DNA from: Hexactinellida sp. DTS-2022
Lineage: Eukaryota; Porifera; Hexactinellida
Assembly (NCBI GenBank): GCA_028753945.1
Contig: JAPNXP010000002.1
Span: 15,259,624-15,323,623, forward strand
Direction: 5' to 3'
DNA: 64,000 bases
Shown one piece after another: positions 3,607 to 63,796 of this stretch. The notes beneath the pieces were generated by a model. It had not been told where the DNA came from. It was given only the letters and a program-made list of their open reading frames with translations, and did no database searches. The translations under genes and the position numbers were made by a program. Numbering within the stretch: position 1 is the stretch's first letter; every line of letters starts with the position of its first letter.

Positions 3607-4931
3607 TCAGATTGTCTGTTCTTTAGAGCTGATTTCTGATTGGTCGCTGGAGGGCGGGGTTAGCACCCGGTTGGGATTGTCTATGTCTGTCGAGGAGAGA
3701 CGAGATTCTGTGGTGACTACTTTGCTGCCTAAATATGTAAACAAACAGGTAAACAAATGTGTAAACAAACAAACAACTGACTAACTAACTAATTTAACTA
3801 ATAAATCAACTAATTAACTATATATAAACTAAGTTATTAATTAACAAACTAACTAACCAACTAACTAACTAGCAAACTATTCAACTAACTAACTAACTAA
3901 CTACATAATTAAACAAACAAACAGACAAACAAACAAACAGACAAACTAACTAACCAAGTAACTAACCAAGTAACTTCTTAATTAATTAACTAACTAACTA
4001 ACAGACAAACTAGCAAACTAACTAACAAACAAACAAACAAACAAACAAACTAACTAACTAACTAACAAACAAACAGATTAATTAGCAAACTAACTAACTA
4101 ACTAACTAACTAACAAACTAACTAACTAACTAACTAACAAACTAACTAACTAACTAACTACCTTTGGTGGGTACTCGTACGATGTTGAGAGGAGCAGGCT
4201 CCTGAGTTTGGTTATCATTAGTCTGTGTCTGTGTCTGTGTCTGTGTCTGTGTCTGTGTCTGAGGTTGTAGATGTACCTCTTCATTAACCAGCTGTTGTAG
4301 GTGCTCCTGTCCCTCTCTCAGTTCCTTCAGTTCAGTCACGGCCTGTCGACAGAACTCCTGTATTGTCTTGCTACAAACCACAAGTATTAACCGACTATAC
4401 TAGTATATACTCTGTTAGTAGGAACACCAGGGGACCGTATTAATATGTTAATAGGAGTCATTTGTAATGAAAAGGCTTAAAATAGTGTTCGTATTTTCCG
4501 GAATTCGTATCAACCGTGTTCTTACTAACGAGGTTCTACTGTAATAATAATATGTTCGTATTATCCGGAATTCGTATTAACCGGAGTCACTCACATGCAT
4601 TTGTATAGGCTAGGGAAATTAAACCTTGTAATCCTTAACCAATATTTCCCTTATCCGTGTTCCTATTAACGAGAGTGGAGTTAACTACATACCTATATAA
4701 GGTGTTATAACATGAATATATGAATGTAACGTACTTAAGAGAGTTGATCTGTATAGCGAGTTCCGAGTTCTGCTGCTTGAGATCTCTGTTCTCGCTCTTT
4801 AGCTGAGAAACCTCTTCGAATACTTTGTTGAACTTAGGTTCCAGTTTGCTGTTGAGCACTTTCTCTATTTTGCTACAAAGCAGTTCCATGTTCTCTGGGG
4901 ATATCGTACAGGTTGTCTCTTCGAAGGACAT
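3607..4931 (-). CDS. Small coiled-coil protein with QT repeat
   Basis: Three minus-strand exons, 4735-4931, 4162-4370 and 3607-3728, join in consistent phase (2 then 1) to 175 residues. Residues about 15-100 form a predicted coiled coil (EEVSQLKSENRDLKQQNSEL, then KTIQEFCRQAVTELKEL), followed by a run of about seven QT dipeptides. The C-terminus is polar and Ser/Thr-rich and ends SSKEQTI. The start MSFEETTC was chosen as the first ATG of the frame; an AG directly upstream (ttgttag) leaves open that this is an internal exon of a longer gene. It lies about 420 bp beyond the PDZD8 stop on the same strand, so a separate gene seems likelier than PDZD8 3' exons. I do not recognise the family. Confidence 0.7.
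3740..4160. repeat. TAAC/AAAC tetranucleotide microsatellite
   Basis: Long mixed array of aactaact and aaacaaac repeats filling the last intron of the small coiled-coil gene. Similar arrays occur in introns at 17513-17680, 30720-31060, 32170-32270 and 52040-52170. Confidence 0.95.
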
Positions 4932-4957
4932 TTCTAACAAATCTAATTCTAATAGTA

Positions 4958-5095
4958 TACAGTATACTCCGCTTAATGGGGATAAAATTTCACAGGATTT
5001 ATCGGACTGAATTACAGCTTGACTCAAAATATTTCTCCGCTTAATCGGGTAGAAGCAACCTGGTCCTGAGGTGACTCTATTAAGCGTAGTCAACT
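4958..5095. repeat. MITE family I (CTCCGCTTAATGGGG)
   Basis: Inverted ends acagtatactccgctta and taagcgtagtcaactgta around a 'ttctccgcttaatcggg' core. Other copies: 15706-15888, 44781-44880 and 53917-54105. Confidence 0.8.
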
Positions 5096-5107
5096 GTATT
5101 CACAATT

Positions 5108-5264
5108 ACAGTTAACTCTCGTTATAACGAAGTGCTTGGGACCTGTGAATCCCTTCGTTATATCCGGATATTCGTTATAAGCGGATAATAATTAATGCAT
5201 TTAGTGCTCTGGGGCAATCTCCATTTCGTTATATCCAACTTCGTTATAACGGGAATTAACTGTA
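5108..5264. repeat. pogo/Tigger-like MITE, family C (CTCGTTATAACGAAG)
   Basis: 157 bp, ends tacagttaactctcgttata and tataacgggaattaactgta, with the internal core 'tttagtgctctgggg'. Other copies near 7360-7519, 13800-13959, 22368-22515, 28171-28319, 41230-41498, 44247-44404 and 51903-52048. Confidence 0.9.
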
Positions 5265-5350: not shown

Positions 5351-8300
5351 CTAATCGTCCCTCTCAGATCCGCTATCCGGAGTTGTCTCCAGTATTTTGA
5401 GGCCCTGGCAATACTGTAGCAATAGGGTGGCGATTGCCCTTTGTTTATCCTCTGTTTTGTTTAGCTGCGATTTAATAACTTGTTTGGATTCAAATTGTGT
5501 TTGTAAAGAGAGTTGTAATTTGAGGGATATTACAACCTCCTCGTGAGTATCCATGTTGTTCTTAAGCATAGAGATGTGCTCGCGGTAGCAGACTAGTCGC
5601 TCCCGTAGAGGCTTATCCTGCAGGGGAATAACAATAACAACAACAACAACAACAACAACATATAATAGAACTATACGAATTTCCGGTTAGTACGATTTCA
5701 GTGCCTTCAATACAAATTACACGAGTTTATTATAATTTCGGATAAGGAGTACACATTTTGACGGTCCCCAGGTGTACGTATTAACGAGGTTCTAATGTAA
5801 ACAGTAAACAAAGTGGTGTCAATTTTCCAAGAACATTGGATAATTAATTATACTCCCAATTGAAAGTCTTAATAATACGAGGAAAACTGAAAAGGCGAAA
5901 AGTCACTCTACAATTGAAATTGGGTAAAACTCTCATTATTATAACAAAATAAATAAATACACTATTTCGGTCGCATTATCTACTTATCCTACAATACAAA
6001 TACCATGTGTCCACTAGTGTTGCTATGCAGTTACCTGGAATCGCGTGGTATCTGGGACGATATCGGATTCCTGTCCCGACAAGGGAGGAGTAGACATCAG
6101 CACTTTCTCAGCATTAGCCTCTATGACGTTAACGCTAAGTCTCGTGCACAGGGGAGTGTGGGTCCGAGCTGTCCTATTCATACACTCCATTAAACAAGCA
6201 TGGTTAACATGGTTAGATACTTAAGAGTTTACTTATACACCGATCATCGGCGTTTGTATTAAAAAACCTGGCTACTTTCTAGAGATTGATTTTTTTATGT
6301 TTATAAAAAACACCATCGGTAGAAACTAGCCAGGTTATTTAATACAAACGCCGATGATCGGTGTATAAGTAAATTCACATATTTACTATTTAGGCGCTTT
6401 ATGGAAAGTTAAATTGAAATAAATGGAGTTAAATTGAAACTTGGAAATACTTATATATCAGCCAACACCTTTTCTAATGAAATTTTCGGTCATTTTTAAC
6501 ATAAAAAATTCACCTTTCGAAGCCGGTTTATATATTGAAAAGGTGTTGGTCGATATAAGTAATTCCTACTAACTTTTGTTTGTTAGTCCTCTCGTTACAA
6601 ACAATCTTGAGATGAGTGTTTGGCAGAAGGGCGCACTTCTGATGGCAGATAAGGCCACAATGCTGGCACCTCGACACCAGATCGGGGCCTAACTCTCTGT
6701 AACATAGCTTACATATGTCGTGTTCTGATTGGCTTATTGCTAGCGCTAGGAAGTTATGCGTATCTTCCTCGGGTATAAGAGCGTCGTAGGAAGAGTCGAA
6801 CTCCTCGAAAATAGAAGGTGCAGCCTATAGGATTATGTAGTAACAGGATGGGACAAATTGATTGCTGTAATAAAAAGTTGTTAATATAAAGTTGGTTTTA
6901 AACAGACTGAAAATTGTTCATAATATATTATATAGGGTATATGGCAACCGTTTTCCAGTATTATATAGGGTATATGGCAACCGTTTTCCAGTAGAATGTT
7001 CTTATAACCGGTGTTCTTATAACCGGTATCTACTGTAACAGAATTGGGACAAGGAATGTGTGAAATCAATGTTTAATCAACAGTCAGGTCTGCTTATTGT
7101 GAACAGTTTTCAGTCTGCTTAATGTGAAGATATTTTATGAAAGTCCTATGGTCCCAATTTAACAATTTACATAGGGTTTGTATTAAGTTGAATTCGCCTA
7201 TTATGAAGCTCTATTATGAACATGATTTAGATCCTTTGTATGTTAACAATAAAGAACCAAACTGTATAGTCCACCAGTGGGCAGGAGCTCCATAGAGACT
7301 ATTATACGTAGAATATAGAAATAATGTTGCACCTAATACATCCTTAGTAATACAGAAAACTCTCGTTAAACCGAAGTGCTTGGGACCTGTAAATTCCTTC
7401 GTTATATCCGGATATTCGTTATAAGCAGATAATAATTAATGGATTAGTGCTCTGGGGGATATCGCCATTAAGTTATAAGCAGTTACTTCGTTATATCCGA
7501 CTTCGTTATATCACTGTATGTAGTATGAACAATTTTTTATGTTTTACAAACTTGAGTATAGAAAATCACGTCTGGATAAACCCCTTGTATACAATGCACT
7601 TACGCTGGATCTATTTTTAGCCCTGACTTCCTCCTGTATACCGGTCCCATCTGTCCCTCTCTCCCGCTCCCTCTGTCGGGCCCGCGAGAGGGCGATGTGT
7701 CTGCTCCAGGGGGCGTACTCGGGCGTGTCCTCTCTCCGGAGGGACCGGGGGGTGTGGGAGAAACACAGGAGGATGTCTCCCGCGAACTGAGCGTGCTTGT
7801 TAGCCACTCCAGCAGCTATCCAGGGCTTGGAGACGCTATCTACCAAGTGGAATGTTAATAAGGCTAAGTGCCTCTAATCAAGGAATTAGCCAGGAGCGCG
7901 AGACGCTCCTTTTGAAGCATCATATTTGGAAAATATTATTAGGAGCGCGAAAATTTGGGATCTTCTCCTATACCGTGACATTAATTTGTGATTTATGCGT
8001 ATGAAAATTGGATCATACCAGGATTAGGAGCGTATTTACAAATGCCCTTATAATACATTAGTGTAAATTAGTTAAAAATTCAGCCCCTCTGATATCTAAA
8101 GCAACTTTCGAAAGTATTATTTATAGCAGGTACTTCAACCATTCAACGAATATAGATATTTGACTGATTTTTGGGAAAAGAGTGAATATCTAGGATTTAT
8201 AGTTCCTATTGTACCTAGAGAATACTTAGTTCCAGTTCCAGTACAGTCCATTGTTCCTGTTGCTAGGTAGAATGGAATGTGGTCAGATGTCTTATGTTAG

Positions 8301-9088: not shown

Positions 9089-12000
9089 ATAGACATGTTA
9101 TAAACACGGTATAGACAGGTTATAGACATGTTAGGAAGGCTGTTAGACAGTAGAACCTGTTGTTGTCGTTAGTATTATTATTATATACAGTATAACTGCT
9201 AATCCGACTCTATATAATACCGAATTTGACAAACCGACACTTGCTATTACGCGAACACCACTGTATTAGATACAAATTCGTTTCCCAAACTTCGACCCGA
9301 TTAACCAAATTCTCTTTGAATACTTTGTAATACCTGTAAATATAAATGAAATGGTCCCCTGGTGTTCCTATTAATGGAACTGTATTACAAAGATGTTAGA
9401 ACCAACATACCCTACCAAATAGGGTACTATAATTAATATTGCTCGGGAATAACCAAACATTAATGAGGCCATTCATTACTCACCACAGAGCAATGCTGAG
9501 GTACTTGTGCTCCGGCATAATATTAAAGGTAAACCTGTCAGGAAACGCCGGGATGTGTCTGGAATAATAATTGTATTTAGTTCTCTGTTGCTGGTCCGGT
9601 CGGAAGTACTCCGCATTAGGAAAGTCCTCTGGAAATCCTATAAATAGAGCAAACATTGGAATTAAATAGAGTAAATAGAGGATTACAATATGTAGAATCT
9701 CGTTAGTACGAACACATCTAAAACGAATTTCCGGATAAGACGAACAAACAGTTCCACAAAATCAGGTTCATACAATGGCTATTCAATGGGTATTACTCCG
9801 GTTAATACGAACTCCGGATAAAGCGAACAAATTTTACCGTCCGTTGGTGTTCGTACTAACGAGGTTCTACTAATGTTATGATGTAAACTTAATGGATAGC
9901 GTATTTCCGTTAGAAAATATGAATGTTAACTTGTGTTACTTGTCAATGGCCTGCATTTGTGTTTATGATAAGTATTATTCATTAATAATTGAACACATAA
10001 ATCAGGACAACGATTTTTGGACAGTTACTATAAAATTAACGACATCGGCTTTTAGAGACAAATCGCTAATAACTTTTTTTGTGTCCAGAGTTCGTAGCAG
10101 GATTTGAAGCTACTCGGATTTAATGAAATATCGGATATAGTGACTTTTTAGCTGTCCAAAACGAGTGTCGATGAATCCAATGTTTAAATTTCAAATCTGT
10201 AGCTCTTACCAGTTTCTCAATCAATTCCGAACAAATAAAAAATAAAAAAATAATTACGATTTAAATATAAGATGTTTATAGCAGAATCCAATCAGGATTA
10301 GTAGGCTACAGGGACAGTGTTTGATTGGCGGAATTATTCGCAGAAAGTATAAATAGGAAACTGCAAGAAATGAACTAAAAATGTTGCTTTTTGTGTATTT
10401 ATTTTTAACACTTTTGTCAGTAACAGCTGAGGAGTTCGAATCGTTTCCGGCTCCTGAATTGAAAGAGGTGAGTTGGACAAACTTTCGTCCTTGCGCCAAA
10501 GAGCTGAATACAGCTTGGCTTTATAACGAGGGAACACAGGATATTAAGAGGTTCTTTATAAAGAATACTTTCTATGTTTGGTCCGAGAAAGATAATAAAG
10601 GGGCGTGGCGAGAGGAGAGCTTGTTAGTTAAGAAAGAAAAAAGAAGTTTGACACTTAAGAATAATCATCTTGGCAACGCTAACAAGCTGTCTGTATGTGC
10701 TGAGAGTATTAACGGTCGGGTAGTTTGTTCTAGGACAGTATACATTAAGGTGCCAGCTAAACAGTTCGGTACAAAACAAATAAACAGGTGTAAAGAGAAT
10801 ATATTCCCTGTTCCCCCTGATATAACGAGTATTCGGATAGTAGACATAGAGATACCCGACCTAGAGAGTGAGGTTATAAGGGGTGTGTCTGTGAAGTGGG
10901 TTTATAAGGGGGAGGGGGTATACACTAAGGGGTTTGTTATAAAGATAAGATCGTTAGAAAAGGGAGATTGGAAAGAGAAAGAGAAATACGTTAGTTTTGA
11001 AACGCAACAGTTTGTATTGCAGGGACTTAACTTTTCAGTTTCGCATTTCATTTCAATTTGCGCTGACGAGAAAAGAGAGGAAACTCCCGAGATTTGTTCC
11101 AAACAGGCAGAACTACAATTCCAGGAGAACTCCGGGTACATAGGTCCCACCCTGTCCCCTCAACCGGAACCTAGAATGGCACCCATTAACACCTTTGGTG
11201 CCTACACCACTGAGAGTAAAGTGGTTGTCAACTGGAGGTTCCCATTCATGTCCCAGGGGGCTGAGTTTGAGGTGGGTCTCTTCTCGAACTGTGCGTACCC
11301 CTCAGCCCTGCGTGGCGAGAAGCGGGTCCGCGTGAGCTCCTCTGAGACCCGGGCAGAGGTGTTAGTGTCCGGGGGCATGAGGCCACTCTGCGCCCGGGTG
11401 TGTGTGGTCTCAGCTGGCGCTAGGGGAGGGGCCGACAGGTGTGGCATGCTGGTGCCTATTAGGGAGGAGGTGATCGTACCCCCGAGGCTCATGTCTAACT
11501 CTAGCTTCGTGAAGGTGTCGCTACAGGCCTCTCGGACACGCGACACATCCACATTCCTATTGCTCTCCGTGGTTGCCGGGGAGCTGGAGATAGGGGGCGT
11601 CCTGAGGGTGACCTGTTGGGGGCGCCACGCCTATAGGGGGCGCCTGGGGGGTCGCATGGTGCGTAGAGTGGTGCAGAGGTATGGGCACGAGCTGAGATCG
11701 GGACGGGAGAACAGCCTGAGGCTGGAGGGACTGCTCACGGACATGGAGTACAGGTGTGCCCTGGATGGACAGATCGGAGACAGGATTGTTCTGTCCACTA
11801 ACGACGCTGTGTTCAGGACGACAGCGGGCCGCCCGACCCCCCCGCCGCCCCCTCAGCTCCAGGGGGACACACACGTGACCGACAGGGGAGCAGTGACTAG
11901 CTCTTTCTCCCTCTACCTCACCCCCTCCTCTGAGAGAGAGGGCGTACCGGAGTTCTATGAATTAGTGGCGGTGCCTCTCGCCATGTACACCGATCAGTTC

Positions 12001-15000
12001 GGAAGAGAAATGTACAAACCTGAGTTCGCAGCTGGCACAATACAGCCACAGTACAAAGACCCTCTCGGGAAGATTCCATCCTCTATACACCATCAGCTGA
12101 TCGCCAAACAGACCAACGCCCCTGTCCCCTTCCAGCTCTACCGACTGGACCACTTGTTCCTGCCTCTGAACATAACATTCGACACCCCCCTGGACCCCAG
12201 CCTCTGGAAGGGAGGTGTCAAGTACTGCTTTATCCTCCTGGCGTTCTCCTACTCGGGGGTTAACGGTTCCCTGGTGTTCTCCCGCAGCTCGCTATCTCTC
12301 CCAGTGAGCATAGCCAGGAGACACGGGGGGCACAGCTACAGCCACACCCAAGGGGAGACAGAGGATACCCTGTATGATACCTCAGACCCCATGGGTATGG
12401 TAGGGGGGTACATGGACCGGGCATTCGATATGACGCTGGGACAGCTCCCAGAGGAACACCATCTCTGGGTTGGGACCCTAGGGGCCCTCTTGGGGTACCT
12501 CATAGCGGCCATAATGGCCCTAGCCCTCTTGCTAGTAACCGTACTCTATGTGAGGATAAAGGTATCTGTTAGGTCTGTTAAACTGAAGAATAGGAGGAAA
12601 GGTGTCCCAAAAGAAAAGGGAGAGATTATACCAATGCTACAGTCTGGAGTACAGGCAAGCGATGAGGAATCCTTCTACTACGAAAACACAACATTCCTAA
12701 GAGACATTAACGTAACTAGCGAGTCAGACTACACCATGAGCTCACCAAACAACTCCCCAATTATAACACCTCATCACATCAGACCTAGGTCCCCCCTCCT
12801 ACAACAACAACAACACCAACAGCCACAACAACAACAACAACAACAACACCAACAGCCACAACAACAACAACAGCAACAACAACAACAGCAACAACACCAA
12901 CAGCCACAACAACAACAACAACAGCAACAACAGCCACAACAACAACAACAGCAACAACAACAACAACAACAGCCACAACAACAACAACAACAACCCCTGC
13001 TCCCTACCCTATCTCCAGCTGCTCATCAGCTGTCTCAGAGCAGACACCCGGAGCCTAATAGCCCTAAGGACACACAGTAGTATAGTATTGTGTATTATAT
13101 GTATTATGTAGTGTGTATACAGTCTGATTATATATATAGCTATGTTATTAATGATATATCAATATAAGTTGTATAATGTGGACATGCAGTAAACGTGTAT
13201 AAAGTATAATAAGTGTAGTAAAATGACAAAATTAAGGAAATACTTCAATAAATCATATTATAAAAAGAAAAATTATTTTTGGGGTGTCACAATACATCTA
13301 CAGTGATACAAATAAGAACACACAGTAGAACCTCGTTAGGAAATGCGTAATCCTTTGAAGCGGACTGAATAGTGTTCGTATTACCCGGAGTCTCGTAGTC
13401 TCGTACTATTAACCATGTAGTATTAACCACTGTATCTATTTATCTAACAACTAAGGCGCTAATCATACACCTCATACCCTGTACAGTACCTCTAGCAGCT
13501 GATTCCTTATCCACCTGTGTATCCTTATCGGAACAGAGAGTGGCCTGTCTCTCCCTCTCCCTCTCCCTCTCTTCCCAGGCGGGGGGGTCCGTCACGGGGG
13601 TGTAGCCCCCCAGCAGAGAGGCGATCTCGGGGTCCGTCTCTGCCACCGGCTTAGCGGCACCTAGATACAGTAACACCTTTATAAAGCGAATGTTCACTTT
13701 TGAGAGGTGTTCATTTTTCATGGTTTATCATAACGTGTGTCTAAAACAATGGGAAAAATTTTGGACTGGGAAAAATGTTCATGTTTTGTAGTTCACTTTT
13801 GGAGGTTATAACGAAATAACTGTTCATAAAGAAATAGCGATGTTTCCCCAGAGCACTAAATGCATTAATTATTATGATTATCCGCTTATAACGAATATCC
13901 GGATATAACGAAGGAATTTACAGGTCCCAAGCACTTCCTTATAACGAGAGTACACTGTACTAATACCATAGCTTCCAATTAATACCCACCCATAGTTAAC
14001 TAACCAGTGGGCTGGTCTAGAGTCCCGATGGGCACCTGTCCGGTAGAAGGAATGTGAGAAGCGAAGAATCTCTGAACGGTCAGGATAAAGCTCCCCGATG
14101 TAGAGGTGTCTATGAGGGACTTTGCCTTTGAGACCGTCTTAACCTCAACTCCATTAACGAAGAACACAAAGTCTCCCTTCATTACCCCGGCGATAGCGGC
14201 AGGACTGCCAGTAGTAACCTCGCTAACCTGGGAACAGAGTGTATAGTGTCTGGCAGTATAGTTAGTAGTACAGTGGAGCCTCCCATAACGGACACTCCAA
14301 ATAGCGGACAACCTCTAAATAACGGACAACCCTCGTGGCACGGATTTATTTATTTAGCATATGTCTAATAGAAAAGCAACCTCTAAATAACGGACAACGG
14401 TTCCGGTCCCAAGGTGTCCGTTGTTCAGAGGCTCTACTGTATATAGTGTATAGCAGTATAAGTGTATAGCTTGTTAGACTCGTTAGTTCTGTTACAGTTA
14501 CATAAATAGGTGCTAGCATATAGTTCCCATACCTAGCTACCGAAATCCCTAGGTATGATGTGTAGATAATTGCATTTTTAGATTTTTATTTATTATGAGT
14601 TTTCACACCATTGGTGCCCTAATCCCTGACGGGTTGACAAATAAGATTTCTATAAAACAAATGAAATACGTACGGCAATTTGATATGGAAATTATTTACT
14701 TTACGAGAGTACAATAAATACTGTGTATAACTATCTAACAATCTAACTATAACCACTGTACAATAACTATATACAGGTAAACCTCCCAAAGCGGCACCTC
14801 CGAGTAGCGGCAACCTCCGAGAAGCGGCACAAAACCATTCTCCCGATGAGTGCCGCTTTGGGAGTTTTACCATACGAGCAACCTCCCAAAGCGGCAACCT
14901 CCGAGAAGCGGCACAAAATCATTCTCCCGATGGGTGCCGCTTTGGGAGGTTTACCTGTATAACTATATACAACTACAGGTAAACCTCCCAAAGCGGTAGC

Positions 15001-36593: not shown

Positions 36594-38160
36594 TTAGAAA
36601 CATTGAAGAGGATAGTTAGGATTGTTAGACACGACACAAATGGTTCCTAATTTTGAGATACAAACTCCATAGGGCTCGATAAACTCTCCCCTTCCCTCTC
36701 CCTTTCTTCCCAAGGTGTGAATATGCTGTCCTAGTTCCGTATATACTTTGATGGCATTACTCCCAAGGTCGCTAATGATAATATTACCAGCTGAGTCCAA
36801 ACAGAAGAAGGAAGGCTCAGCGACCAAACTGTCCTCTGTCCCTCTAGAGACACAGGAACTGAGGGGGTGTCCTTCTCGAGAGAAGAAATGGACACAATTG
36901 GGACTCTTGTCTAGCACCACGATTCGATCAGCTGACAGCTTAACGTCTCTAGGGCGATTCAGCTGTCCTATTCCGATACAGGACTTGAATTTGAGGAGTT
37001 TGGAGTATACGCACACTCTGTTGTTCCTGCTATCTGCAACTAACACATCTCCGTTAGTGTCGATACAGAGTCCACAGGGATAGTACAACTCTCCTTCCTT
37101 GTTGCCATAAGTTCCAGTTATGTTGATGAGTTTGAAATCTTTCTTTCGGAACTGTAACAATGCATGGTGCCATGCGTCGATTACGAATATGGACTCTTTG
37201 TTGACAGCTATTCCCAATGGACTCGCTAGCTTATCATTCTTGAATTGCGACACAAACTCTCCCTTTAATGACACTATTTGCACACGATTGTTGTAACAAT
37301 CTGCTATGTACATTGCTCAGTGGATTCATCGAATGCTATTCCTCTGGCTTCCAACTCATTAGCACCTGCACCTAACTTCCCAGCTGTTAATACCGGTTCT
37401 CGCTTGAGAGAATAGTCCGGTATCTCACACGGGACTATCTCTCCTAGCTCGGATATCAGCTGTCGGATTGTGTCCTTATTTTGACACCTGAAGACGGGAC
37501 ATAGGAATGTGGCAGATGGTCCCAGTTTCTCAATGCCCTGTTGGTAGAATTGTGTGGCCTGTTCATGGAACTCTAAGTTTGGGTTAACCTTTATGCTCAT
37601 TTCGTGCATTTGTTGCTGTACCCTTTCCAGTTCTTCTATGGCAGCGATACGAGTGGCCTCTTTGTTCCTGTGGTCCTCTCGCAGCTCACGGACCCTCTGG
37701 AGGAGAGCGTCCCTCCTCGCGATCAGCTGATCGATTAGGGGATCGAATGTTTGGAGAATGATAGTGGCGACATTGTCGAATTGTGCCATTTTATCGAAAG
37801 TTACGTTTGTAGGCATATTAGTGGCCATTTTAGTTTCGGTTACGAATTGAGTTTATTCAAATAATATAAATATTTAATGCAGATCTATCTTATACTTGTG
37901 TAACTTGAGAATACCAAAGTACGTCAATGGTTGCTATGGTGATATCTGGAAGTTAGGGAATTTTTCTTGGTTAATTGTGTCTACTGCGACACAACTAGAA
38001 TAATTTACAATTGTTTATCGGATCAAACGTGTATGTTTTTAGAAAATTCCCATTTCCCCACAAACAACAGTGCAGTTCTTATCTTACAGACATTATTGCG
38101 TTTTCAACCATAGTTTGATTAATAATTAGAATTGTACACGCCAAAATACTTGGCGCCTTA
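36213..38160. repeat. Left arm of NHL-gene inverted duplication
   Basis: About 1.95 kb matching 38378-40416 in inverted orientation. The match covers the NHL reading frame, the upstream region and 'gtacacgcc' near the centre, and an outer block with ctcggaccacattcgaaaaa and ggcgcgcgaaaat. The spacer between arms is about 217 bp (38161-38377). Confidence 0.9.
36594..37828 (-). pseudogene. Frameshifted coiled-coil/NHL protein copy
   Basis: Two overlapping minus-strand frames, 37304-37828 and 36594-37313, together match the intact 411-residue copy at 38707-39942. At about 37315 the copy reads cactgagcaatgtac where the intact copy reads cactgagctaatgtac, so one T is missing. The first frame therefore stops after DESTEQCT. 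The first frame holds the N-terminal helical region, the second (starting MYIADCYNNRV) the NHL propeller. The second frame has its own ATG at the break, so two shorter proteins are conceivable, but loss of a base in a recent duplicate is the simplest reading. A sequencing error cannot be excluded. Differences from the other copy are scattered substitutions, such as CYNNR for CLNSR. Confidence 0.8.
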
Positions 38161-38377: not shown

Positions 38378-40416
38378 AAGTGCCGAGTATTTGGCGTGTA
38401 CAATTCTAATTAGGAATCAAACTATGCTTTGCAAACGCAATAATGTCTTTAAGATAAGAACTGCACTGTTGTTTGTGGGAAAATGGGAATTTTCTAAAAA
38501 CATACACGATGATCCGATAAACAATTGTAAATTATTCTAGTTGTGTCGCAGTAGACACAATTAACCAAGAAAAATTCCCTAACTTCCAGATATCACCATA
38601 GCAACCATTGACGTACTTGGGTATTCTCAAGTTACACAAGTATAAGATAGAGCTGTATTTAATATTTATTTTATTTGAATAAACTCAATTCGTAACTAAA
38701 ACTAAAATGGCCACTAATATGCCAACAAATGTAACTTTCAATAAAATGGCACAATTCGACAATGTCGCCACTATCATCCACCAATCATTTGATCCGCTAA
38801 TCGATCAGCTGATCGCGAGGAGGGACGCTCTCCTTCAGAGGGCCCGTGAGCTGCGAGAGGACCACAGGAACAAAGAGGCCACTCGTATCGCTGCCATAGA
38901 AGAACTCGAAAGGGTACAGCAACAAATGCAAGAAATGAGCATAAAGGTTAACCCAAACCTAGAGTTCCATGAACAGGCCAAACAAGCCTACCAACAGGGC
39001 ATTAAGAAACTGGGACCATCTGCCACATTCCTATGTCCCGTCTTTAGGTGTCAAAACAAGGACACAATCCGACAGCTGATATCCGAGCTAGGAGAGATAG
39101 TCCCGTGTGAGATACCGGACTATTCTCTCAAGCGAGAACCGGCAATAACAGCTGGGAAGTTAGGTGCAGGTGCTAATGAGTTGAATGCCAGAGGAATAGC
39201 ATTCGATGAATCCACTGAGCTAATGTACATAGCAGATTGTTTGAACAGTCGTGTGCAAATAGTGTCGTTAAAGGGAGAGTTTGTGGCACATTTCAAGAAT
39301 GATAAGCTAGTGTGTCCATGGGGAATAGCTGTTAACAAAGAGTCCATATTCGTAACCGACATAGGGCACCAAGCATTGTTACAGTTCCGAAAGAAAGATT
39401 TCAAACTCATCAACAGAACTGGAACTGAAGGCAACAAGGAAGGAGAGTTGTACTATCCCAATGGACTCTGTATCGACACTAACGGAGATGTGTTAGTTGC
39501 AGATAACCTAAACCACAGAGTGTGTGTATACTCGAAACTCCTCAAATTCAAGTCCTGTATCGGAATACGACAGCTGTTTAATCCTAGAGACGTTAAGCTG
39601 TCAGCTGATCGAATCGTGGTGCTAGACAGGAGTCCCAAATGTGTCCATTTCTTCTCTCGAGAAGGACACCCCCTCAGTTCCTGTGTCTCTAGAGGGACAG
39701 TGTACAGAATGGTCGCTAACCCTATCTTCTTCTGTTTGGACTCAGCTGGTAATATTATTATTAGCGACCTTGGGAGTAATGCCATCAAGGTGTATACGGA
39801 ATCTGGACAGCATATTCACACCTTGGGAAGAGGGGGAAAGGGAAGGGGAGATTTTACTTCTCCCTATGGAGTTTGTATTTCCAAGTTTGGAATTATTTGT
39901 GTCGTGTCTCATAATCCCAACTATTCTCTGCAATGTTTCTAATCCGTTTGTATTTATTATTTGTTTACATATTGGTTCTATTAAAAAATGTGAACTGAAA
40001 AAGAGTAAAATGAAAATGTTTTAACAATTATTTGGGACCTCCCTATGTTACGTTTTTTATCATTTTGTGATACAAAAAGGATGGTCTGTCACTAGGCTTT
40101 CCAGGCAAATTTTCTGCGCGCCTAGATTTAGTTTGAGCTCGCTCACACGCGCTTAAATAATCCAATTTGTACTACGTCTATGGGAGCATCTCTTGATGTT
40201 CGCGCGCCTAAAAAGTTTCCTTTCAAAAAACTTAATTGTTTGCGTAGCGTCTACTTTCAATAAACGCGTGAATGAAATGCCTGACTGTCACACATTGGCT
40301 GAGCCCTCCCCATTGGAAGTATTACGTATTATCAGGCGCGGCAAGTCCTTTCGAAAAGTGGCACGGCGGACATTTTACATTTTTCGAATGTGGTCCGAGA
40401 CGCCGCACCAGTTAAA
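38378..40416. repeat. Right arm of NHL-gene inverted duplication
   Basis: Inverted partner of 36213-38160. Its outer end has the same block ending cgccgcaccagttaaaa, and at 40080-40250 the 'gcgcgcctagatttagtttg' repeat also found near 44035-44222. Confidence 0.9.
38707..39942 (+). CDS. Coiled-coil/NHL-repeat protein (TRIM-NHL-like, no RING)
   Basis: Single exon, 411 residues. Residues about 1-100 are helical and charged (ARELREDHRNKEATRIAAIE, coiled coil), as in TRIM proteins. About 165-411 is an NHL beta-propeller with blades such as GIAFDESTELMYIADCLNSR, GIAVNKESIFVTD, GLCIDTNGDVLVADNLNHR and GNIIISDLGSNAIKV. There is no RING or B-box, so an E3 ligase activity is not supported; NHL propellers bind RNA or protein partners. 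It is arranged head to head with its frameshifted duplicate, 878 bp between the two ATGs, so both may use one duplicated bidirectional promoter. A third, more divergent member is at 60261-61511. Confidence 0.88.
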   Translation: MATNMPTNVTFNKMAQFDNVATIIHQSFDPLIDQLIARRDALLQRARELREDHRNKEATRIAAIEELERVQQQMQEMSIKVNPNLEFHEQAKQAYQQGIKKLGPSATFLCPVFRCQNKDTIRQLISELGEIVPCEIPDYSLKREPAITAGKLGAGANELNARGIAFDESTELMYIADCLNSRVQIVSLKGEFVAHFKNDKLVCPWGIAVNKESIFVTDIGHQALLQFRKKDFKLINRTGTEGNKEGELYYPNGLCIDTNGDVLVADNLNHRVCVYSKLLKFKSCIGIRQLFNPRDVKLSADRIVVLDRSPKCVHFFSREGHPLSSCVSRGTVYRMVANPIFFCLDSAGNIIISDLGSNAIKVYTESGQHIHTLGRGGKGRGDFTSPYGVCISKFGIICVVSHNPNYSLQCF

Positions 40417-54908: not shown

Positions 54909-56110
54909 ATTGTTGTATGTTTGTGGTGATATTTGAATACACACTGTATATTCATACCTACTTTATAGATACAAATTTGCTTGCTAATAGGCGAACTTGC
55001 TATTAGAGGAACAGAATTAACATTAAATGCTCGCTTGGGGACTGAAATAACTTGCAAATAAAGCAATATTGCTATTAGACGAACAACTACTGTATATAAA
55101 TATATTCTTATTTCTTATTACTCTTTCACTACAGTAAACGCCCCCTTATAACCACGAATAAAGTAACTAATTTTACTAACAGGAGTTCACTGTACTAATA
55201 AGTAGAACCGGTTCCCAAAATATGGTTCTTATAACCGGTATATATTTCTATGTATTATATTACAACTTAAGTTATACGGACACCTCATTAATGTTCTTAT
55301 AGAGTACATAAATTCTTTAGGGTATATGGCAACAATTTACCAGTATAATGTTCTTATAACCGGTGTTCTTATAACCGATATTTACATACATTAATATAAT
55401 CAATCTGGTTCTAGTATTTTCTCAAAACATTTTCCCAAGAAACCTAACTTATAATTGTTTCAAGTACCATATGTCGTTAGTAGGGAATCAATGCAGTATA
55501 AAGCTATGGCTTCCTATTCAACACAAATCTAATATATTCTCATTTGTTGTAAATTGTAATGCAAATGTATTTATTTCTCTATTACTCCTGGCGATTGGAA
55601 AGTGAACTGAATACAAACAGCAAACATTAATTTAAATTTATAATTGCTACTAGCAACGTTTTTAAGAGCTTCAGTATATGTAGATGTTTTATTTCTAGAC
55701 GATCTATAAAAGCCCATATAAACTAAGCTAAATTTTGTATACCAAAAGCCCATACCGTATAAGAGTAATACTAGTATACTACGATGTAAGATAAGAAACC
55801 TGGCTAGAAATAGACCGTCTACATTTTTTATTTTTTCTTATTTTAAAAATATGTTCTCCTTATCCGGAATTCGTATTAATTAACTAATATCATTTGTATT
55901 GAAAGGCTTTGAAGGGGACTGAAATAGTGTTCGTATTAATTAACCGTGTTCGTAATAACGAGGTTCTACTGTAATATTTTAACAACTATAATTACATTAT
56001 ACTCTTACAGCATTCGTTCTATGGTATTTGGTACTGCCTATAGTCTCTATTTATACCACAGTGTTATATCTCGGCCAATAGAATAGCAGCTAGTAGCACA
56101 GCATAAGAGA
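54909..56110. other. NDUFS5 to ATP6V1D intergenic region
   Basis: Contains a family F MITE (54962-55095), a degenerate family E region (55190-55390) and a family A MITE (55845-55973). No coding exon was recognised. Confidence 0.7.
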
Positions 56111-58305
56111 ATGTCAGGCGCTAGCAAGGATAGGCTTAACATATTCCCGTCTCGGATGGCACTGACCTCCACAAAGCTGCGACTCAAGGGGGCCCAGAAG
56201 GGGTACTCTCTCCTCAAGAAGAAGTCGGACGCTCTCACGCTAAGGTTCCGACAGATCCTGGCTAAGATCATAGAGAACAAGACCCTTATGGGGGAGGTTA
56301 GTTGTATAGGGTATAGCAGTGTGTAGTTGTATTCTGTAAGGGAATTGTTACTTATTTAAGAGGGGTTTCAAACGTTTCTTAACGATCCAATGTTAACCAA
56401 TGTTAATCATTGATCACAATCCTTATTACAGTCAAAACATTCAAGATACAAAAATTGTGTTCATAATAGAGATACTTTATAATATGCGATCTCATCTTAA
56501 TACAAACCCTATGTAAGTTGTTAATTGGGACCATAGGGCTTGTTCATAATAAATAAAAAGTTTTCCATACTTAGCAGACGAAAAATTGTTCACAATTATA
56601 TTACTAAATTGTCAAAAAAGGTGGTCTAATTTTTGGGAACTGCGTTACGTTATATAGCAGTGTATAGGAGGGCCAGGAATGACATACCTTTGTCCCATAA
56701 CGGTTGCTACCTACCCCTCCCTAGGTAATGAAGTAATATTCCTTATCATATATAGAGGTGTACTATATAACAATATGGTATAGTATAATTAGAGTACGTC
56801 CTAGATATAATTATATCGAAATCAAACACGGGATCACAACCACTGAATACAGAATTTCCCTACTATATAATTACACTTCTATGTACATATTACGTATTAC
56901 TCAATTAACTTGCAATGAATTTCCTCTGTTCGATTAAGTACTATTTTATTCTTACTATAATGGCATACCTTTGTCCCATAACGGTTGCTACCCGCTACCC
57001 TCCCTAGGTAATGAAGGAGGCCTCATTTAGCCTTGCGGAGGCTCGCTTCTCCGCGGGAGACATAACCCCCATGGTGCTGGAGAACGTGGACAGGGCCAAG
57101 GTTAAGATTAGAGCCAAGAAGGATAATGTGGCAGGGGTGCAGCTTCCGGTGTTCGAGTGTTATCAGGAGGGAGGAGACAACTATCTGCTCACGGGCCTAT
57201 CCAGAGGGGGGCAACAGGTACGGGCAAATGGAATGTGAACTGTAATTATAGCAACTTATCTAACTGTATAGCGAGTTCGTATAATAGCAATATTAATGCT
57301 CTATTAGCTAGTTATTTAAGTTCCCATTTAATGTATTCTGTTTCTATAATAGCAAGTTCGCCTATTTGCAGCAGATTCAGGTAAAATGCAACTTGCTATT
57401 ACGCGAATACACTAACATTAATAGTTCAATACGAATTGTATTACATAGTTAGTATTAGTTACAGTAGACCGTTAATAGGAACACGGATAAGGAATATCAG
57501 TTAAGGAGTACAAGGTTAATTCCCCTAGCCTATACAAATGTATGCAAGTAACTCCGGTTAATACGAATTCCGGATAATACGAACATATTAAGACGGTCCC
57601 CTGGTGTTCCTATTAACAGAGTCTACTGTTAATCAATCGCATGAACGCATTAGGTCCACAGATGCAAAGAGGTGTACTACAAAGCTGTTAAGCTCTTGGT
57701 AGAACTCGCTACGCTGCAAACGGCATTCATTGTGTTAGACGAAGCAATCAAAGTTACGAATAGACGCGTGAATGCGATTGAATACGTTATTATACCTCGC
57801 ATAGAGAACACCATAAGGTCAGTTATTAATTGTTCTATTGGGATATAATGCTAATAATTATGCAGTAGAACCTCGTTAGTACAACACGGTTAATATGTAT
57901 ACTATTCAGTCCCATTCAATGCCTTTTCAATACAAATGATATTGTTTTATAGTTTATACGAACACGGTTAATACGAACACTATTTCAGTCCCCTTCAAAG
58001 CCTTTTCAGGATAAGGAGTACACGTTTTTACGGTCCCGTACTAACGAGGTTCTACTGTACGTAACAATAGCATTAAATTTCCTTAATTCAGGTACATAAC
58101 TACAGAATTAGATGAGACGGAAAGAGAGGAGTTTTTCCGTTTAAAGAAAATCCAGGAAAAGAAACGTATACATAAGGAAAAGCAGAAATTACAAAATGAA
58201 CTTGAGGGAATCAAAACTGTGTCCCATAATTATTCTGCCACTGAATTGGAGCCAGCTGGGCCGAGTATATTCGAGGGAAATCAAGATGAAGATATGGTAG
58301 TATAA
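56111..58305 (+). CDS. ATP6V1D: V-type proton ATPase subunit D
   Basis: Exons 56111-56296, 57008-57217, 57654-57817 and 58092-58305 (phases 0, 0, 2) give 257 residues (human 247). Subunit D is the central rotor stalk of the V1 sector, coupling ATP hydrolysis to proton pumping into endosomes and lysosomes. Highly conserved blocks: KDRLNIFPSRMALTSTKLRL, LLKKKSDALTLRFRQILAKI, KVKIRAKKDNVAGVQLPVFE, DEAIKVTNRRVNAIEYVIIP and ELDETEREEFFRLKKIQEKK. It is almost entirely a long coiled coil, as expected. The acidic C-terminus ends NQDEDMVV. Intron 1 contains a duplicated copy of the exon 2 acceptor (see the repeat entry). Confidence 0.97.
56681..57016. repeat. Duplicated splice-acceptor segment in ATP6V1D intron 1
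   Basis: A segment of about 53 bp (catacctttgtcccataacg through ccctccctaggtaatgaag) occurs at 56681-56733 and again at 56963-57016, about 282 bp apart. The second copy contains the genuine exon 2 acceptor. The first reproduces the acceptor and the first codons, but its frame reads V-M-K-stop. Confidence 0.9.
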
Positions 58306-58577
58306 GGCGAGGTGTGAAATTATGAATATATATCTCTACTTTCTGTATGGTGTATTAGAAGTTTGTTATTGTTGTCAAATATATGAAAATATTCATTAGG
58401 AATTTATATAATTCAGGATACAGGTAATAGGGACACCAGGGGACCGTATAAATCTTATTTTAACAGGTGTTACTAACCGGAACTATAATACATAAATTTG
58501 AAACTTGCAATGGAGTTTTATGTTGTTGTTGTTGTTTATTTAAATTGTCTTTTGATTGATTATTTAGCTTTTATAGC

Positions 58578-61500
58578 ATGTTGTTAGTTCTATTAATATC
58601 ACTTGCAATTTCCCACATAACTTCGCAATCGTGTCCAGACACAACTAGCCAAATACCAGCTCACTGCCCATACTTCAACAACAGATATCTTAATGGAACT
58701 AACCCTGAACTTAGTTCCAATTCCAACTGCCATTGGTACCGTCCATACGCGTGTTGTACCCCTACAGAGGATCATAGATTGGTTGAGGGTGTGGCCAATA
58801 ATCTGTTTATTAATCCAACGGAAAATTGTTTGGATTTATTAAACTTGTTAGTTTGTTATGTGTGCAGTCCAAATCAAAGTTTGTTCTATTTTCCAGGACA
58901 GCTTGTAATCTGTAGGTAAGTTGTTGCTAATTATAGAACAATTAGGAACTATGTTTTCGTTACAATAGCACAGGGATTTTGATGCTATATTCTGGTACTT
59001 GCTTAGTTATTTTGGAAAAATTCAATTGCTGTATTTAAGAATTCGGAACTAAATAATTTTTAATTCCAAACATGACGTTTGCAATTCGTTTTGTTATAAA
59101 AGTTTCTAATATTATACGTACAAGCTGCTCGTCCGCGCTACGCGCGTTCTTACAACTTACACTCGGGCCTGCGGCCCTCGCTTGTATTCAAAACACATGC
59201 CTTTTCAAATTAAATGTCGGTTGTATTTAATTATATACTCCAATAGACTTAAACTAAATCTAGGCTCCTATAAAAACTTTCGATTATGGACGAAAAATGA
59301 CGAAAAAATTATATACCCCCTCCCTACATCACGCTTTTTGTCATTTTTGAAATAAAAAGGACGGGTTGTAACACTTATCCCCATGAGCATTACTTAAATT
59401 CAAAAGCACAAATTGATTATATTACGGGAATCATATGGGAAATATTTAGGTGACCGCTAGTGACCCACATAACAGTAATGCTATTGTTTCAGAGTAGGAC
59501 TGTGCCCCCCTAAGCTGTCTATTTATCCATGGGACCTAGCCATAGGAATATACGTATAAGGACAGAAAAAAAAATTGGGAATACTAATCAGCGTCTGTAC
59601 TGTTGAATATTTATGCTAATTAGAACTGACAGTTTTCTAGATAATAACGCATGTCCGTGTATATATTAATAAACTAACTCCAAATATAAAAGAAATATCA
59701 CTAAGGAACTGTACAACTCTGTGGACCCCTAACTTTGGGCTGTGGAGAAGTTATTGAATTGATTGGTAATAATTGGATATCAAATCGACACAAAGGAATG
59801 TTAGAAATGTATGGATACACAGAGGGAACACAATAACTGATCGTATAAAATGAACTTCCTCTCGACCAATTAAATCAGTCTCAGATAGGCATTCTATAAC
59901 GCACACTTAACAATTGATAGAGACACTAAAATCCTTTTATACGAATTGAATGCTAGCTGCTAATCCATACTGGAAAACCCTCGAATTTAATAGGCTAAAA
60001 GTTTTGTCACCTATAGGGAGGGAAGATGTGAATATTTTTCTTAGATATTAGAACTTGTTTCTAGATACAGTATTCCCTATTCCCCTGCCAAATTTCAAGT
60101 CTGTAGCTCTTACCAGTTCCTCAATCAATTCTGAACAAACAAACAAAACAAAAAACAAATCATTGTGATTTAATATATAAGATAATGTTAATAAACTTTT
60201 TGTTGTTTTCAATTTATTTATTTTTCTTTCAAATTATTACAAAATACTACATTCAAATATTTAATAGAAAATATACAACCCAAACTTAGTACCATATGAA
60301 GTACAAATAATCTTGTTGTCTGTCACTGCTATTCCACAGGGCTTTATTCTCCTATCTTCTCCCTGCGTATTTCCCAGTGTGTGTAGCAGAGCTCCTTCTC
60401 GAGAGAATACTTTAATGGAATTAGATTTAGAGTCGCTAATGAGGATATTCTGCTGTTTGTCCAAACAGAAGAAGTATCCTTCTTCAATTTGTTCGTTTTC
60501 CCATCTGCCACATGCTATAAGGGAGCGGAGTTTCTCACCAGATTGTGAGAACACATGGAGACACGGGTTGTCTTTAGAGCTGAGAACAAACACCTCATTG
60601 CCCAGTAGTTTGACGTCAACGGGCTGTGTCATGCTGGCATGCGAGATGGACAGTTTAAATTTGAGTTTATTGGTCATTACTACTACTCTGTTATTATTCC
60701 TATCTGCTATGAACACAGACCCGTTAGGCGCTACTGTGAGTTGGTGAGGACAATCGAACTCTCGGTTACCTGTTCCTAGCTTGCCTACCTTAGTTATTAA
60801 CCGGAAACCTGGCAACTTAAAGTGGAGAATGGAATGCAGGAATGAGTCGCTCACATACACCTCATCCCCATTAATGGCTATGCCTGCTGGCACCTTAAAT
60901 TGTCCCTTACTGAATGTATTAATGTATTCTCCGGTAACAGAGAATACAATAATACAATTATTCATTGAAGTTAATGGATGTACGTTCGCTATGTAGATGA
61001 GCTGAGTTCGCTCATCGAAAGCTATTCCGTTAGGGTAGTCAAGTTCTCCCGGACCTGTTCCTTGCTCCCAGACTGAGATGCGAGGTTGTCGGAGTGCGGG
61101 GTAGTTCGGAACTGGAACTGGAACTATCTCCCTCTCTGCCAGCTGTCCCAGTGCAGAGATGGTCTCCTCCAGCTGTCGAGTGTGGCACTCAAACAACACC
61201 TCCACTTCTCTCTCCGACACCTCCAGCTGTGCCATCCGAGTCTCGATCTCCGCTACCATTCTCTCCCGCATGGAGCGGAGCAGGTTCTCCTTCATTTGGG
61301 TTTGGAGATTAGCTCTCGTGTCGGCCAGCTCTCTCACCGTCCGAACGCGAGTTGTGGTCGCGGCGCGTCTCTCCTCCTGTCTCTCTCGGTGCTCGGCGAT
61401 CAGCTGTTCCCGTCTGCGGTTGAGACAGACGATCAGCTGATCGAACTTCGCGTGAATGCGAGCCTCGATCGGGTCCGTGGGGAGGGGAACTTCTGGGTAC

Positions 61501-62218
61501 CGTTCTGCCATTTGTGCTCTGTATTAGGTTGGTTGTGAGACTGTTAGGTTGCTGTGTGTATAATTGTGTGAGCAGAGACAGTAGCATTACTTATAGTCCC
61601 GTGTGTAGCAGAATATACTCTGGCAACATTGTGGCTAATAAGCAGATTCGTGGAAGAATATCTGTTTTGATGGAACAGAGTTCTCTCACGGGACAGAAAG
61701 TTCCCACACTCGAGACACAACTATGTTGTTAGTTCCAGTTTATAGAAAGTGTATAGTTGCAGTTTATAGAAAGTGTATAGTTGCAGTTTGATGGAATGTG
61801 TATAATTGCAGTTTTAAGAACTTTGTGTAATAATTTATTCATTTTTAAGTGAACTCTCTTTTATAATTGAGTCATAAAAAATTTAAACTTCCAATTAATT
61901 TATTAACGAGTTTACTTGGTTAATATAATTACTTTTAGGGATTTTTGTGACAGGATTTACTCAGCTTGTTCATCTGCTATTTGGAAAGGAGAAACATTGG
62001 ATACACACTTTGTAAATAGTTCCCAATTCTGTTTGTCCAGAGGGTACACTCTGGAAGAGAGTCCCAATCTTAGTTCTTGTTTCAACTCTGCTAATAGGAT
62101 AGGGAGCAGTGTATTCAGTTTGTTTACTTGTTTGTTTGTTTCATTGATGTTTGGATCTAAACTAAGATTGAGGATATTCATAGTTTTTCTACTTTTCCTT
62201 TCGGTAAGTTTGTTATAA
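58578..62218 (+). CDS. Folate-receptor-like secreted/membrane protein
   Basis: Exons 58578-58915 and 61939-62218 join in phase 2 (AG|G) to 205 residues if the second exon is read to its stop. A signal peptide (MLLVLLISLAISHITS) precedes a cysteine-rich domain with WYRPYACC, CLDLLNLLVCYVCSPNQ and VICRDFCDRIYSACSSA. This spacing is that of the folate receptor family (also found in HHIP). Two hydrophobic stretches close the protein (VFSLFTCLFVSLM, then IFIVFLLFLSVSLL), consistent with a GPI-anchor signal or a membrane helix. Ligand cannot be inferred. The 3-kb intron contains a complete minus-strand NHL gene. The last exon has an internal ATG and donor that appear to serve a downstream alpha2delta-like gene in the same frame, so a fused protein is an alternative. 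Confidence 0.75.
59118..59190. repeat. Cluster of short GC-rich mini-palindromes
   Basis: 'gtccgcgctacgcgcgttc' and 'gggcctgcggccc' are short hairpins within AT-rich intron DNA, of the same style as 50735-50815 but different in sequence. Confidence 0.7.
60261..61511 (-). CDS. Coiled-coil/NHL-repeat protein (TRIM-NHL-like, no RING)
   Basis: Single exon, 416 residues, starting MAERYPEVPLPTDPIEARI. Residues about 15-140 form a charged coiled coil (REQLIAEHRERQEERRAATT). From about 150 an NHL beta-propeller follows: GTGPGELDYPNGIAFDERTQ, GIAINGDEVYVSD, QLTVAPNGSVFIADRNNNR and NILISDSKSNSIKVFSREG. No RING or B-box zinc finger is present. Layout and length match the 38.7-kb NHL gene, but the sequence is clearly diverged, so these are paralogues rather than recent copies. 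The gene sits in the opposite orientation inside the intron of the folate-receptor-like gene (58916-61938). NHL propellers usually bind RNA or protein; the partner is unknown. Confidence 0.88.
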   Translation of the reverse strand: MAERYPEVPLPTDPIEARIHAKFDQLIVCLNRRREQLIAEHRERQEERRAATTTRVRTVRELADTRANLQTQMKENLLRSMRERMVAEIETRMAQLEVSEREVEVLFECHTRQLEETISALGQLAEREIVPVPVPNYPALRQPRISVWEQGTGPGELDYPNGIAFDERTQLIYIANVHPLTSMNNCIIVFSVTGEYINTFSKGQFKVPAGIAINGDEVYVSDSFLHSILHFKLPGFRLITKVGKLGTGNREFDCPHQLTVAPNGSVFIADRNNNRVVVMTNKLKFKLSISHASMTQPVDVKLLGNEVFVLSSKDNPCLHVFSQSGEKLRSLIACGRWENEQIEEGYFFCLDKQQNILISDSKSNSIKVFSREGALLHTLGNTQGEDRRIKPCGIAVTDNKIICTSYGTKFGLYIFY

Positions 62219-63796
62219 ATATTTCTATGTCAGTCAGGTCTGCTTATTGTGAACTATTTTCGTCTGCTTAAACTTTTTATTATGATCCCAATTTACAACT
62301 TACATAGGGTTTGTATTAAGTTGAGTTCGCTTACTATTATCGCAATTGTTGGTCCCTTGTACAGTAGAACCTCGTTAGTACGAACACGGTTAATACGAAT
62401 TTCCGGATAAGACGAACAAACAGTTCCACAAAATCAGGTCCCTACAATGGGTATTACTCCGGTATTACAAACTCCTGATAAAGCGAACAGATTTTACCGT
62501 ATAACATGTTCGTACTAACGAGGTTCTACTGTATGTTCATAATACGAACTGCTATTTATACATAACCCCACATCCCGTTAGGCACTTGGCCTATCAGAAT
62601 GCCAGCTGCTAGCTACGGACGTGGACACCTGGGCTGACTCAATGGGTACCTTCACGCATAACATCACATGGCGACTCTTGCAGGTAGAATCTCTACAGAA
62701 CATATTTAACTCTGCTACTTATTCGCAGTTGCGGGTTGACGGCTCTCAGCTGAGAGACGAGATGGCCACTCAGCTGACTGGTGTTTATCAGGAGGCCACA
62801 CTGGCTGTTCGCACCCTGGTTAGCAGCACGGAACAGCTGTTCCGTAGCGAGTGCGAACACACTGATGGCATACAGTACACTGACCTAGGTACAGTGTTCC
62901 TATAATAGCAATTGCTATAGTAGCAAGCGAGCATTTAATGTTACTTCTGTTCGTCTAATAGCAAGTTATTTCTGTCCCCAAGCGAGCATTTAACATGTGA
63001 ATTATGTTACTCTAATATCAATTGCTATAATAGCAAGTTATTTCTGTCCCCAAGCGAGCATTTAATGTTAATTCTGTTCCTCTAATAGCAATTGCTCTAA
63101 TAGCAAGTTATTTCAATCCTCAAGCGAGCATTTAATGTTAACCGATATTCCCTTATACGTGTTCTTATTAACCAGAGCTGAGTATTACTGTAGTTAGTCA
63201 GTTAGCTAGTTAGTTAATTAGTTATTGTGTTCCTATTAACAGAGTATACTGTAGTTAGTCAGTTAGTTAGTTGGTTAATTAGTTATTCTGTTCCTATTAA
63301 CAGAGTATACTGTAGTTAGTCAGTTAGCTAGTTAGTTAATTAGTTATTCTGTTCCTATTAACAGAGTATACTGTAGTTAGTCAGTTAGCTAGTTAGTTAA
63401 TTAGTTATTGTGTTCCTATTAACGAGTGTCTATAATTATATTTCTAACTTTCAGATGAGCTACGAAAAGCCGGTTTATTTTACGACGCTGACACAACAAG
63501 TTTCTCCCCCAACACAAACTTGAGTTCGGTTAAGATATCTGATAGCGTAGATAGAAAGGGACTGACACAAGAGATCGCATTAACTGCTAATCTTACCGAT
63601 ACATTCATCAGTGTAAAGAAAGGGAGTCAGTATATAACGAGACTCTATTTCGGGTCCGTAATTGGGTTTCTACGAGAGTTCCCGGGTAAGGAGTGGGAAA
63701 GAGATATAATCGGGTTCCCAAAGGAGTATGACCCTAGGCTACAAAACTGGTATCATGCAGCCACCTCAAGGCCAAAAGATATTGTTATTGTTATTG
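62147..63796 (+). CDS. Alpha2delta / VWA-cache type protein, 5' part
   Basis: Exons 62147-62203, 62582-62888 and 63455-63796 (phases 0 and 1) give about 235 residues, and the gene continues past the right edge. Exon 1 encodes a classical signal peptide, MFGSKLRLRIFIVFLLFLS, continued by ALGLSEC. The next exons match the VWA_N region of voltage-gated calcium channel alpha2delta subunits and CACHD1: a tryptophan-containing helical start (DVDTWADSMG), LQNIFNSATYSQLRVDG, then TRLYFGSVIGFLREFPGKEW and YDPRLQNWYHAATSRPKDIV, which in the family directly precedes the VWA domain with its MIDAS motif. That domain would start in the next exon. Alpha2delta subunits traffic channels to the cell surface. 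The first exon lies wholly inside the last exon of the folate-receptor-like gene. Confidence 0.78.
62358..62535. repeat. Family A MITE in alpha2delta intron
   Basis: Well-preserved copy, ends tacagtagaacctcgttagt and actaacgaggttctactgta, with the core 'acagttccacaaaatcaggt' also present in the copies at 9690-9873 and 47842-48020. Confidence 0.9.
63185..63425. repeat. Tandem repeat, 61-bp unit
   Basis: Four copies of a unit starting 'actgtagttagtcagttag' and ending 'gttcctattaacagagtat' lie in the second alpha2delta intron. The unit fuses a TTAG simple repeat with the terminal piece of a pogo-like MITE, so the MITE end was amplified with the microsatellite. Confidence 0.9.

Follow-up and report, generated by a model that had tools for sequence, protein, structure and literature searches.

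Head-to-tail genes that pass for a single gene are known from Botryllus schlosseri, in which fuhc-sec and fuhc-tm, one secreted and one membrane-bound, were initially believed to be a single gene with alternative splicing, and in which rare linked transcripts splice exons of both genes together (PMC3691228). Transcription-induced chimeras, such as those of LY6G5B and LY6G6D, also join adjacent genes of the same strand, with intron retention involved in regulation (PMC2562388). Here we analyzed a stretch of 64,000 nucleotides (nt) (C11:15259624-15323623, hereafter the window), in which a small cysteine-rich gene (gene A) is adjoined, without intergenic space, by a gene that probably encodes a very divergent alpha2delta/CACHD1-like protein (gene B); a candidate signal-peptide exon of gene B lies inside the last exon of gene A, in the same frame. 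Positions are numbered from the start of the window, and those above 64000 continue this numbering (C11 position minus 15259623). The locus resembles the fuhc pair in being a tandem secreted/membrane pair that could be confused with one gene, whereas the two fuhc genes lie 227 bp apart and, at the present locus, the last exon of the first gene contains, in frame, the proposed signal-peptide exon of the second. It resembles LY6G5B/LY6G6D, whose chimeric transcripts join them, in consisting of neighboring genes on one strand, but a shared exon in which a tail is the next signal peptide is not described in the abstract of that report. Narrow literature searches found neither alpha2delta together with folate receptor in sponges nor a tail and a signal peptide shared in the same frame. 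Conjoined tandem genes are already known; this same-frame sharing is the new element here.

Gene A consists of two exons on the forward strand. Exon 1 (58578-58915) starts with ATG at 58578, encodes a hydrophobic, signal-peptide-like N-terminus (judged from hydropathy) and the first part of a cysteine-rich domain, and is followed by a GTAAGT donor at 58916. Exon 2 (61939-62218), after TTTTAG, encodes the remainder of the domain, two hydrophobic tail segments and the stop codon TAA (62216-62218). The open reading frame (ORF) is intact and gives a product of 205 amino acids (aa). The exon 1 frame alone matched the Pfam family Folate_rec (PF03024; E 2.5e-7, 31.2 bits), and the exon 2 frame by itself had no Pfam match. 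Joining the two raised the score from 31.2 to 49.2 bits (E 7.2e-13, cut-off 29.8, residues 41-141), which supports the 58915-61939 splice; of the 172 profile positions, the match spans only 12-125. When the gene A sequence was compared with solved structures at E up to 1, hedgehog-interacting protein (HHIP; PDB 7pgk, E 0.004) was the sole match, and no folate receptor structure was matched. A previous reading made from the letters of the DNA (the sequence-only reading) had called this gene folate-receptor-like; the folate receptor name holds for the Pfam family but not for the structure match, and because HHIP was the only structure found, 'FOLR/HHIP-type cysteine-rich domain' seems the safer label. 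Gene A is like the HHIP N-domain and the folate receptors in its Folate_rec domain and its match to HHIP in 7pgk, and differs from them in having just one small domain, followed by a hydrophobic tail. This tail is composed of two hydrophobic runs, VFSLFTCLFVSLMF and IFIVFLLFLSVSLL, separated by GSKLRLR. Its first segment (IGSSVFSLFTCLFVSLMF) resembles a complete glycosylphosphatidylinositol (GPI)-type signal, as does the tail of gene B; tails and signal peptides were judged from hydropathy or by eye throughout. Searches of the same genome (112.4 Mb in 18 contigs, searched exon by exon, with only the best candidates scored) gave one other Folate_rec place, C5:245893-246309 (L009), inside a long open frame. 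The translation of that frame is HHIP-like by eye.

The open frame that carries the N-terminal region of gene B (62582-62905) is preceded directly by an in-frame stop codon, TAG at 62579-62581, which is part of the acceptor GTTAG; a coding exon is therefore needed upstream. The proposed first coding exon, 62147-62203, is nested in frame in exon 2 of gene A. It has 57 nt, or 19 codons, in phase 0, runs from an ATG to a GTAAGT 5' splice site (62204-62209, forward strand) and joins 62582 in frame. It would encode the n-region and the h-region of the signal peptide, and exon 2 of gene B (62582-62888) would add the c-region, ALGLSEC, followed by Q and the beginning of the mature protein. Use of the splice site leads into gene B, whereas a transcript that ignores it reaches the stop codon of gene A 12 nt further on, at 62216. 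Hence, in the frame of gene A, skipping the donor gives the 205-aa product and using it gives a fused ORF of 1,302 residues, unless a weaker GTA/GTG site is used. The exon at 61939-62218, the in-frame ATG at 62147, the GTAAGT at 62204 and the in-frame splice to 62582, all pointed out in the sequence-only reading, are present as described.

We asked how readily such an exon would arise by chance. All phase-0 ATG-to-donor candidates on the forward strand of 55000-62581, which covers the 7.6 kb upstream of gene B exon 2, were ranked as first exons, each scored with the exon 2 residues of gene B attached and with a set of donor weights. A signal-peptide-grade core was found in 1 of 11, namely 62147-62203 (mean hydropathy 3.09, charge +3, donor score 8.9). 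Across about 264 kb on both strands, unique donors numbered 3 at the strictest thresholds, 62204 among them, and 15 at the loosest. The preceding ATG is at 61796, giving an ATG-to-ATG gap of 351 nt; 88 of 7616 gaps were of this length or longer. The ATG-free stretch of the forward strand (61797-62146) is a possible 5' leader of gene B. Within it, 61940-62146 contains no ATG in any frame, a property shared by 88 of 1276 window stretches of equal length. In-frame continuity alone is a weaker, moderate coincidence: in local non-coding sequence, a run of 22 codons, the distance between the final cysteine of the domain and the ATG, would be open in about 22% of cases, times 1/3 for the frame. Taken together, the single candidate of this grade among 11, the fit of phase and donor, and the 351-nt gap make a chance origin of the signal-peptide exon unlikely. 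A hydrophobic tail whose internal ATG imitates a signal peptide by chance was rejected, since the GTAAGT matches in phase, exon 2 contributes a c-region and no further candidate of this grade lies within the 7.6 kb.

Gene B was followed beyond the end of the window, with exon boundaries picked by eye. The model comprises 12 exons on the forward strand and 1,120 aa, open from ATG 62147 to the stop codon at 116675-116677. Exon 2 had no Pfam match alone. Exon 3 (63455-63796), which carries the end of VWA_N and the run-in to VWA, matched VWA_N below the cut-off (E 7.7e-7, 30.2 bits against 34.7), as did the full protein (E 2.8e-7, 31.6 bits). The full protein also matched VWA_2 above the cut-off (E 1.6e-6, 29.1 bits against 27) and MCP-like_PDC_1 below its cut-off (E 1e-4). 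Among PDB sequences, CACHD1 was matched at E 5.1e-22 and alpha2delta-1 at E 9.4e-13, and residues 480-840 aligned with CACHD1 479-811, indicating Cache homology. A DxSxS motif like that of the metal ion-dependent adhesion site (MIDAS) is retained in the VWA domain as DCSSS. The protein terminates directly in a short hydrophobic, GPI-like tail, TRTVGSSILIGLLCLLMCL. VGCC_alpha2 (PF08473) was not listed for the protein at E up to 1, and a genome search at the same threshold, which detected no control, gave no match either; the GPHH domain of CaV alpha1 was also not found in the genome, again in a search that detected no control. Gene B thus shares VWA_N, VWA and the PDB matches with both alpha2delta (CACNA2D) and CACHD1, but is very divergent, and VGCC_alpha2 was not found. 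It differs from CACHD1 in keeping DxSxS and ending in a hydrophobic tail, whereas CACHD1 has a disrupted MIDAS and a type I membrane end (PMC6231325). The alpha2delta-type assignment made before for the N-terminal region is borne out by the full-length model (VWA_N, VWA, Cache homology and the CACHD1 and alpha2delta-1 matches), which supports a very divergent alpha2delta/CACHD1-like gene.

The introns after exons 2 and 3 are at 62889-63454 and 63797-64246. The model continues with exon 4 (64247-64510), exons 5 (72383-72591) and 6 (73186-73279), which have the weak donors GTGTCT and GTTCGT, respectively, and exons 7 (73713-74038) and 8 (74363-75239). Exon 9 is a mini-exon (75480-75574), which was picked from the enumerated candidates by frame and by pattern fit after ...DAGGAG; when exon 8 was joined directly to the exon at 115062 without it, the frame was broken. 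Exons 10 (115062-115290), 11 (115800-116051) and 12 (from 116367 to the stop codon) complete the model, with AATAAA 62 nt beyond. One intron holds a 39-kb array of an 88-bp satellite (75677-114822, that is, C11:15335300-15374445; L003, L010-L013), with coding exons close to both of its ends. Two tandem repeat arrays (62923-63423), with units of about 70 and about 61 nt, fill a large part of the intron between exons 2 and 3, and the intron after 62203 contains an element at 62360-62533 with perfect inverted ends of 27 nt, which we labeled as resembling a miniature inverted-repeat transposable element (MITE).

The sequence-only reading had offered two outcomes, overlapping genes or a fused protein. 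The gene structures behind both are present, and we lean, not strongly, to the overlap: at a probability of about 0.52, these are two head-to-tail secretory genes that overlap, with the first coding exon of gene B inside the last exon of gene A in the same frame. The exon sequences, frames, splice consensus and domain matches were observed directly; the transcript starts, splices and 3' ends that follow are predicted. Gene A would start upstream of 58578, and its transcripts would leave the 62204 donor unused through intronic polyadenylation and end translation at the 62216 stop. Transcription of gene B would begin at a separate start, between about 61797 and 62146, with 62147 as the first ATG, and splicing at 62204 would yield the gene B product, so that the second hydrophobic run of the gene A tail would double as the gene B signal peptide. 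Gene A transcripts that used the 62204 donor would produce the fused ORF as a read-through product. Gene B needs a signal peptide, because its 1,120-aa open model contains VWA_N, VWA, Cache homology and a hydrophobic tail, and exon 2 holds only the c-region; scanning as far as 62147 agrees with the 351-nt gap between ATGs. A separate gene A is favored by its anchor-like first tail segment, its own signal-peptide-like start and the fact that its exons form one Folate_rec domain. The promoter of gene B may be shared with a divergent gene, an NHL beta-propeller open frame of 420 aa on the reverse strand (60261-61523; NHL E 8.1e-17) that lies inside the gene A intron and whose start, at about 61511, faces the shared exon; such an antisense gene could serve in this way.

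Several observations weigh against overlapping genes. The promoter motif TATAWA is absent from 61520-62146, while three copies stand in 58300-58577 upstream of gene A; many animal promoters lack a TATA-type element, so that this is only weak evidence. The 378 nt of 62204-62581 contain neither AATAAA nor ATTAAA, only TATAAA at 62214 and GATAAA at 62477, and the absence of a canonical polyadenylation signal here favors the rival explanations. One of the two signals was found within 364 nt of 18 of 24 long-ORF ends (a set that includes at least one internal exon end and is not made up entirely of true gene ends), compared with 40% of 2000 random stretches. The neighboring V-ATPase D gene is likewise followed by 273 nt with neither AATAAA nor ATTAAA. 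Two hydrophobic runs split by KLRLR, as in the full tail of gene A, are also unusual for a GPI signal. Finally, in human, mouse and Drosophila, U1 at a splice donor is reported to guard against intronic polyadenylation close by (PMC5499120), and such protection at 62204 would favor the fusion over a separate gene A mRNA. Read-through fusion and a polyprotein are serious rivals.

The first rival is a single transcription unit, possible but less probable than the overlap, in which exons 1 and 2 of gene A are spliced at 62204 into gene B to give the 1,302-residue ORF. Its frame is open throughout, no canonical polyadenylation signal precedes 62582, and the 62204 donor (score 8.9) is close to those at 58916 (10.4) and 63797 (8.3) and above that at 62889 (3.3). 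In the fused ORF, a basic loop separates two hydrophobic segments (residues 167-185 and 192-210), which suggests the layout of a membrane hairpin, with one segment leading out, a cytosolic basic loop and the other segment leading back in. In that arrangement, at the endoplasmic reticulum (ER), the first segment would span outward, the GSKLRLR loop would be cytosolic, and the second would re-enter the membrane and be cut after SEC or ALG; both S-E-C and A-L-G at the hairpin end agree with the (-3,-1) rule for signal peptidase. Because the two segments and the loop precede a signal-peptidase-type site, the fused ORF may not stay fused, and signal peptidase would separate the two proteins. A cellular membrane protein, iRhom2, is reported to be a non-canonical substrate that signal peptidase cleaves (PMC7618786). 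One mRNA would then supply two surface proteins in a fixed ratio, as a cellular polyprotein, whereas a true fusion of FOLR and alpha2delta would result if the product were not cleaved. Against this rival, the first segment is short, at about 15 residues, and a fusion would need neither an intact signal peptide with an ATG of its own nor an ATG-free leader. The fuller version, a polyprotein switch in which one mRNA encodes hairpin-joined FOLR/HHIP-type and alpha2delta-type proteins, the tail of the former serving as signal peptide of the latter, separated by signal peptidase in the ER, and in which leaving 62204 unused gives the first protein only, we regard as distinctly improbable.

Also unlikely is that the overlap is only apparent, with gene A ending otherwise (in a further exon, or as a decaying gene) or gene B using a remote first exon. 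The partial Folate_rec match and the repeats and MITE-like element in the neighboring introns fit this explanation, as do five weaker GTA/GTG sites within exon 2 of gene A, and the ranked first-exon candidates reach only 7.6 kb upstream. On the other side, the gene A ORF is intact, 61939-62203 contains no GTRAGN-like donor, splicing gene A exon 1 straight to 62582 would be out of frame by arithmetic, and no other signal-peptide-grade candidate exists in 55000-62581.

A second copy with the ancestral layout was not found in the same genome when the shared exon, the gene B N-terminus, VWA_N and Folate_rec were searched; only this locus and the C5 Folate_rec place appeared. Exon 3 of gene B gave 119 pattern stretches in bacterial and archaeal genome contigs and 6 in viral contigs, of which none was confirmed in either set.

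Other genes of the region were noted. Long open frames of the NHL beta-propeller type are found in the window at 60261-61523 (reverse), 38683-39942 (forward) and 36594-37852 (reverse), and in L002 at 3638-5215 (forward) and 6191-7414 (reverse); three of them sit in introns of gene A or gene B. The first two are supported by Pfam and L002 3638-5215 by the genome search, whereas the NHL-like character of 36594-37852, which is split over two frames, and of L002 6191-7414 was judged by eye. The family is very large in this genome, with at least 150 places scored among 2268 candidates. The window also contains a 907-aa open frame (10357-13080, forward) whose translation seems, by eye, to have a signal peptide, a stretch resembling a transmembrane segment and a long tail rich in glutamine; it had no Pfam match at 0.001. 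Introns and integrin alpha and similar genes point to an animal genome, for which chromosome number and size suggest a sponge only as a guess. COX1 was not found in a genome search that detected 8 of 14 controls, nor was a sterol methyltransferase C domain, in a search that detected no control.

The alpha2delta proteins are stated to appear absent from sponges and ctenophores (PMC5095125), and gene B would contradict this statement only if the present genome is that of a sponge or a ctenophore. At this one locus, overlap, read-through and polyprotein processing can be distinguished from each other. If the polyprotein reading were true, one splice site would switch between one and two surface proteins. 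A same-frame exon that serves both as a membrane tail and as the next signal peptide would illustrate how the fusion of secretory neighbors can proceed by way of a low-cost stage, because signal peptidase can separate the products again.

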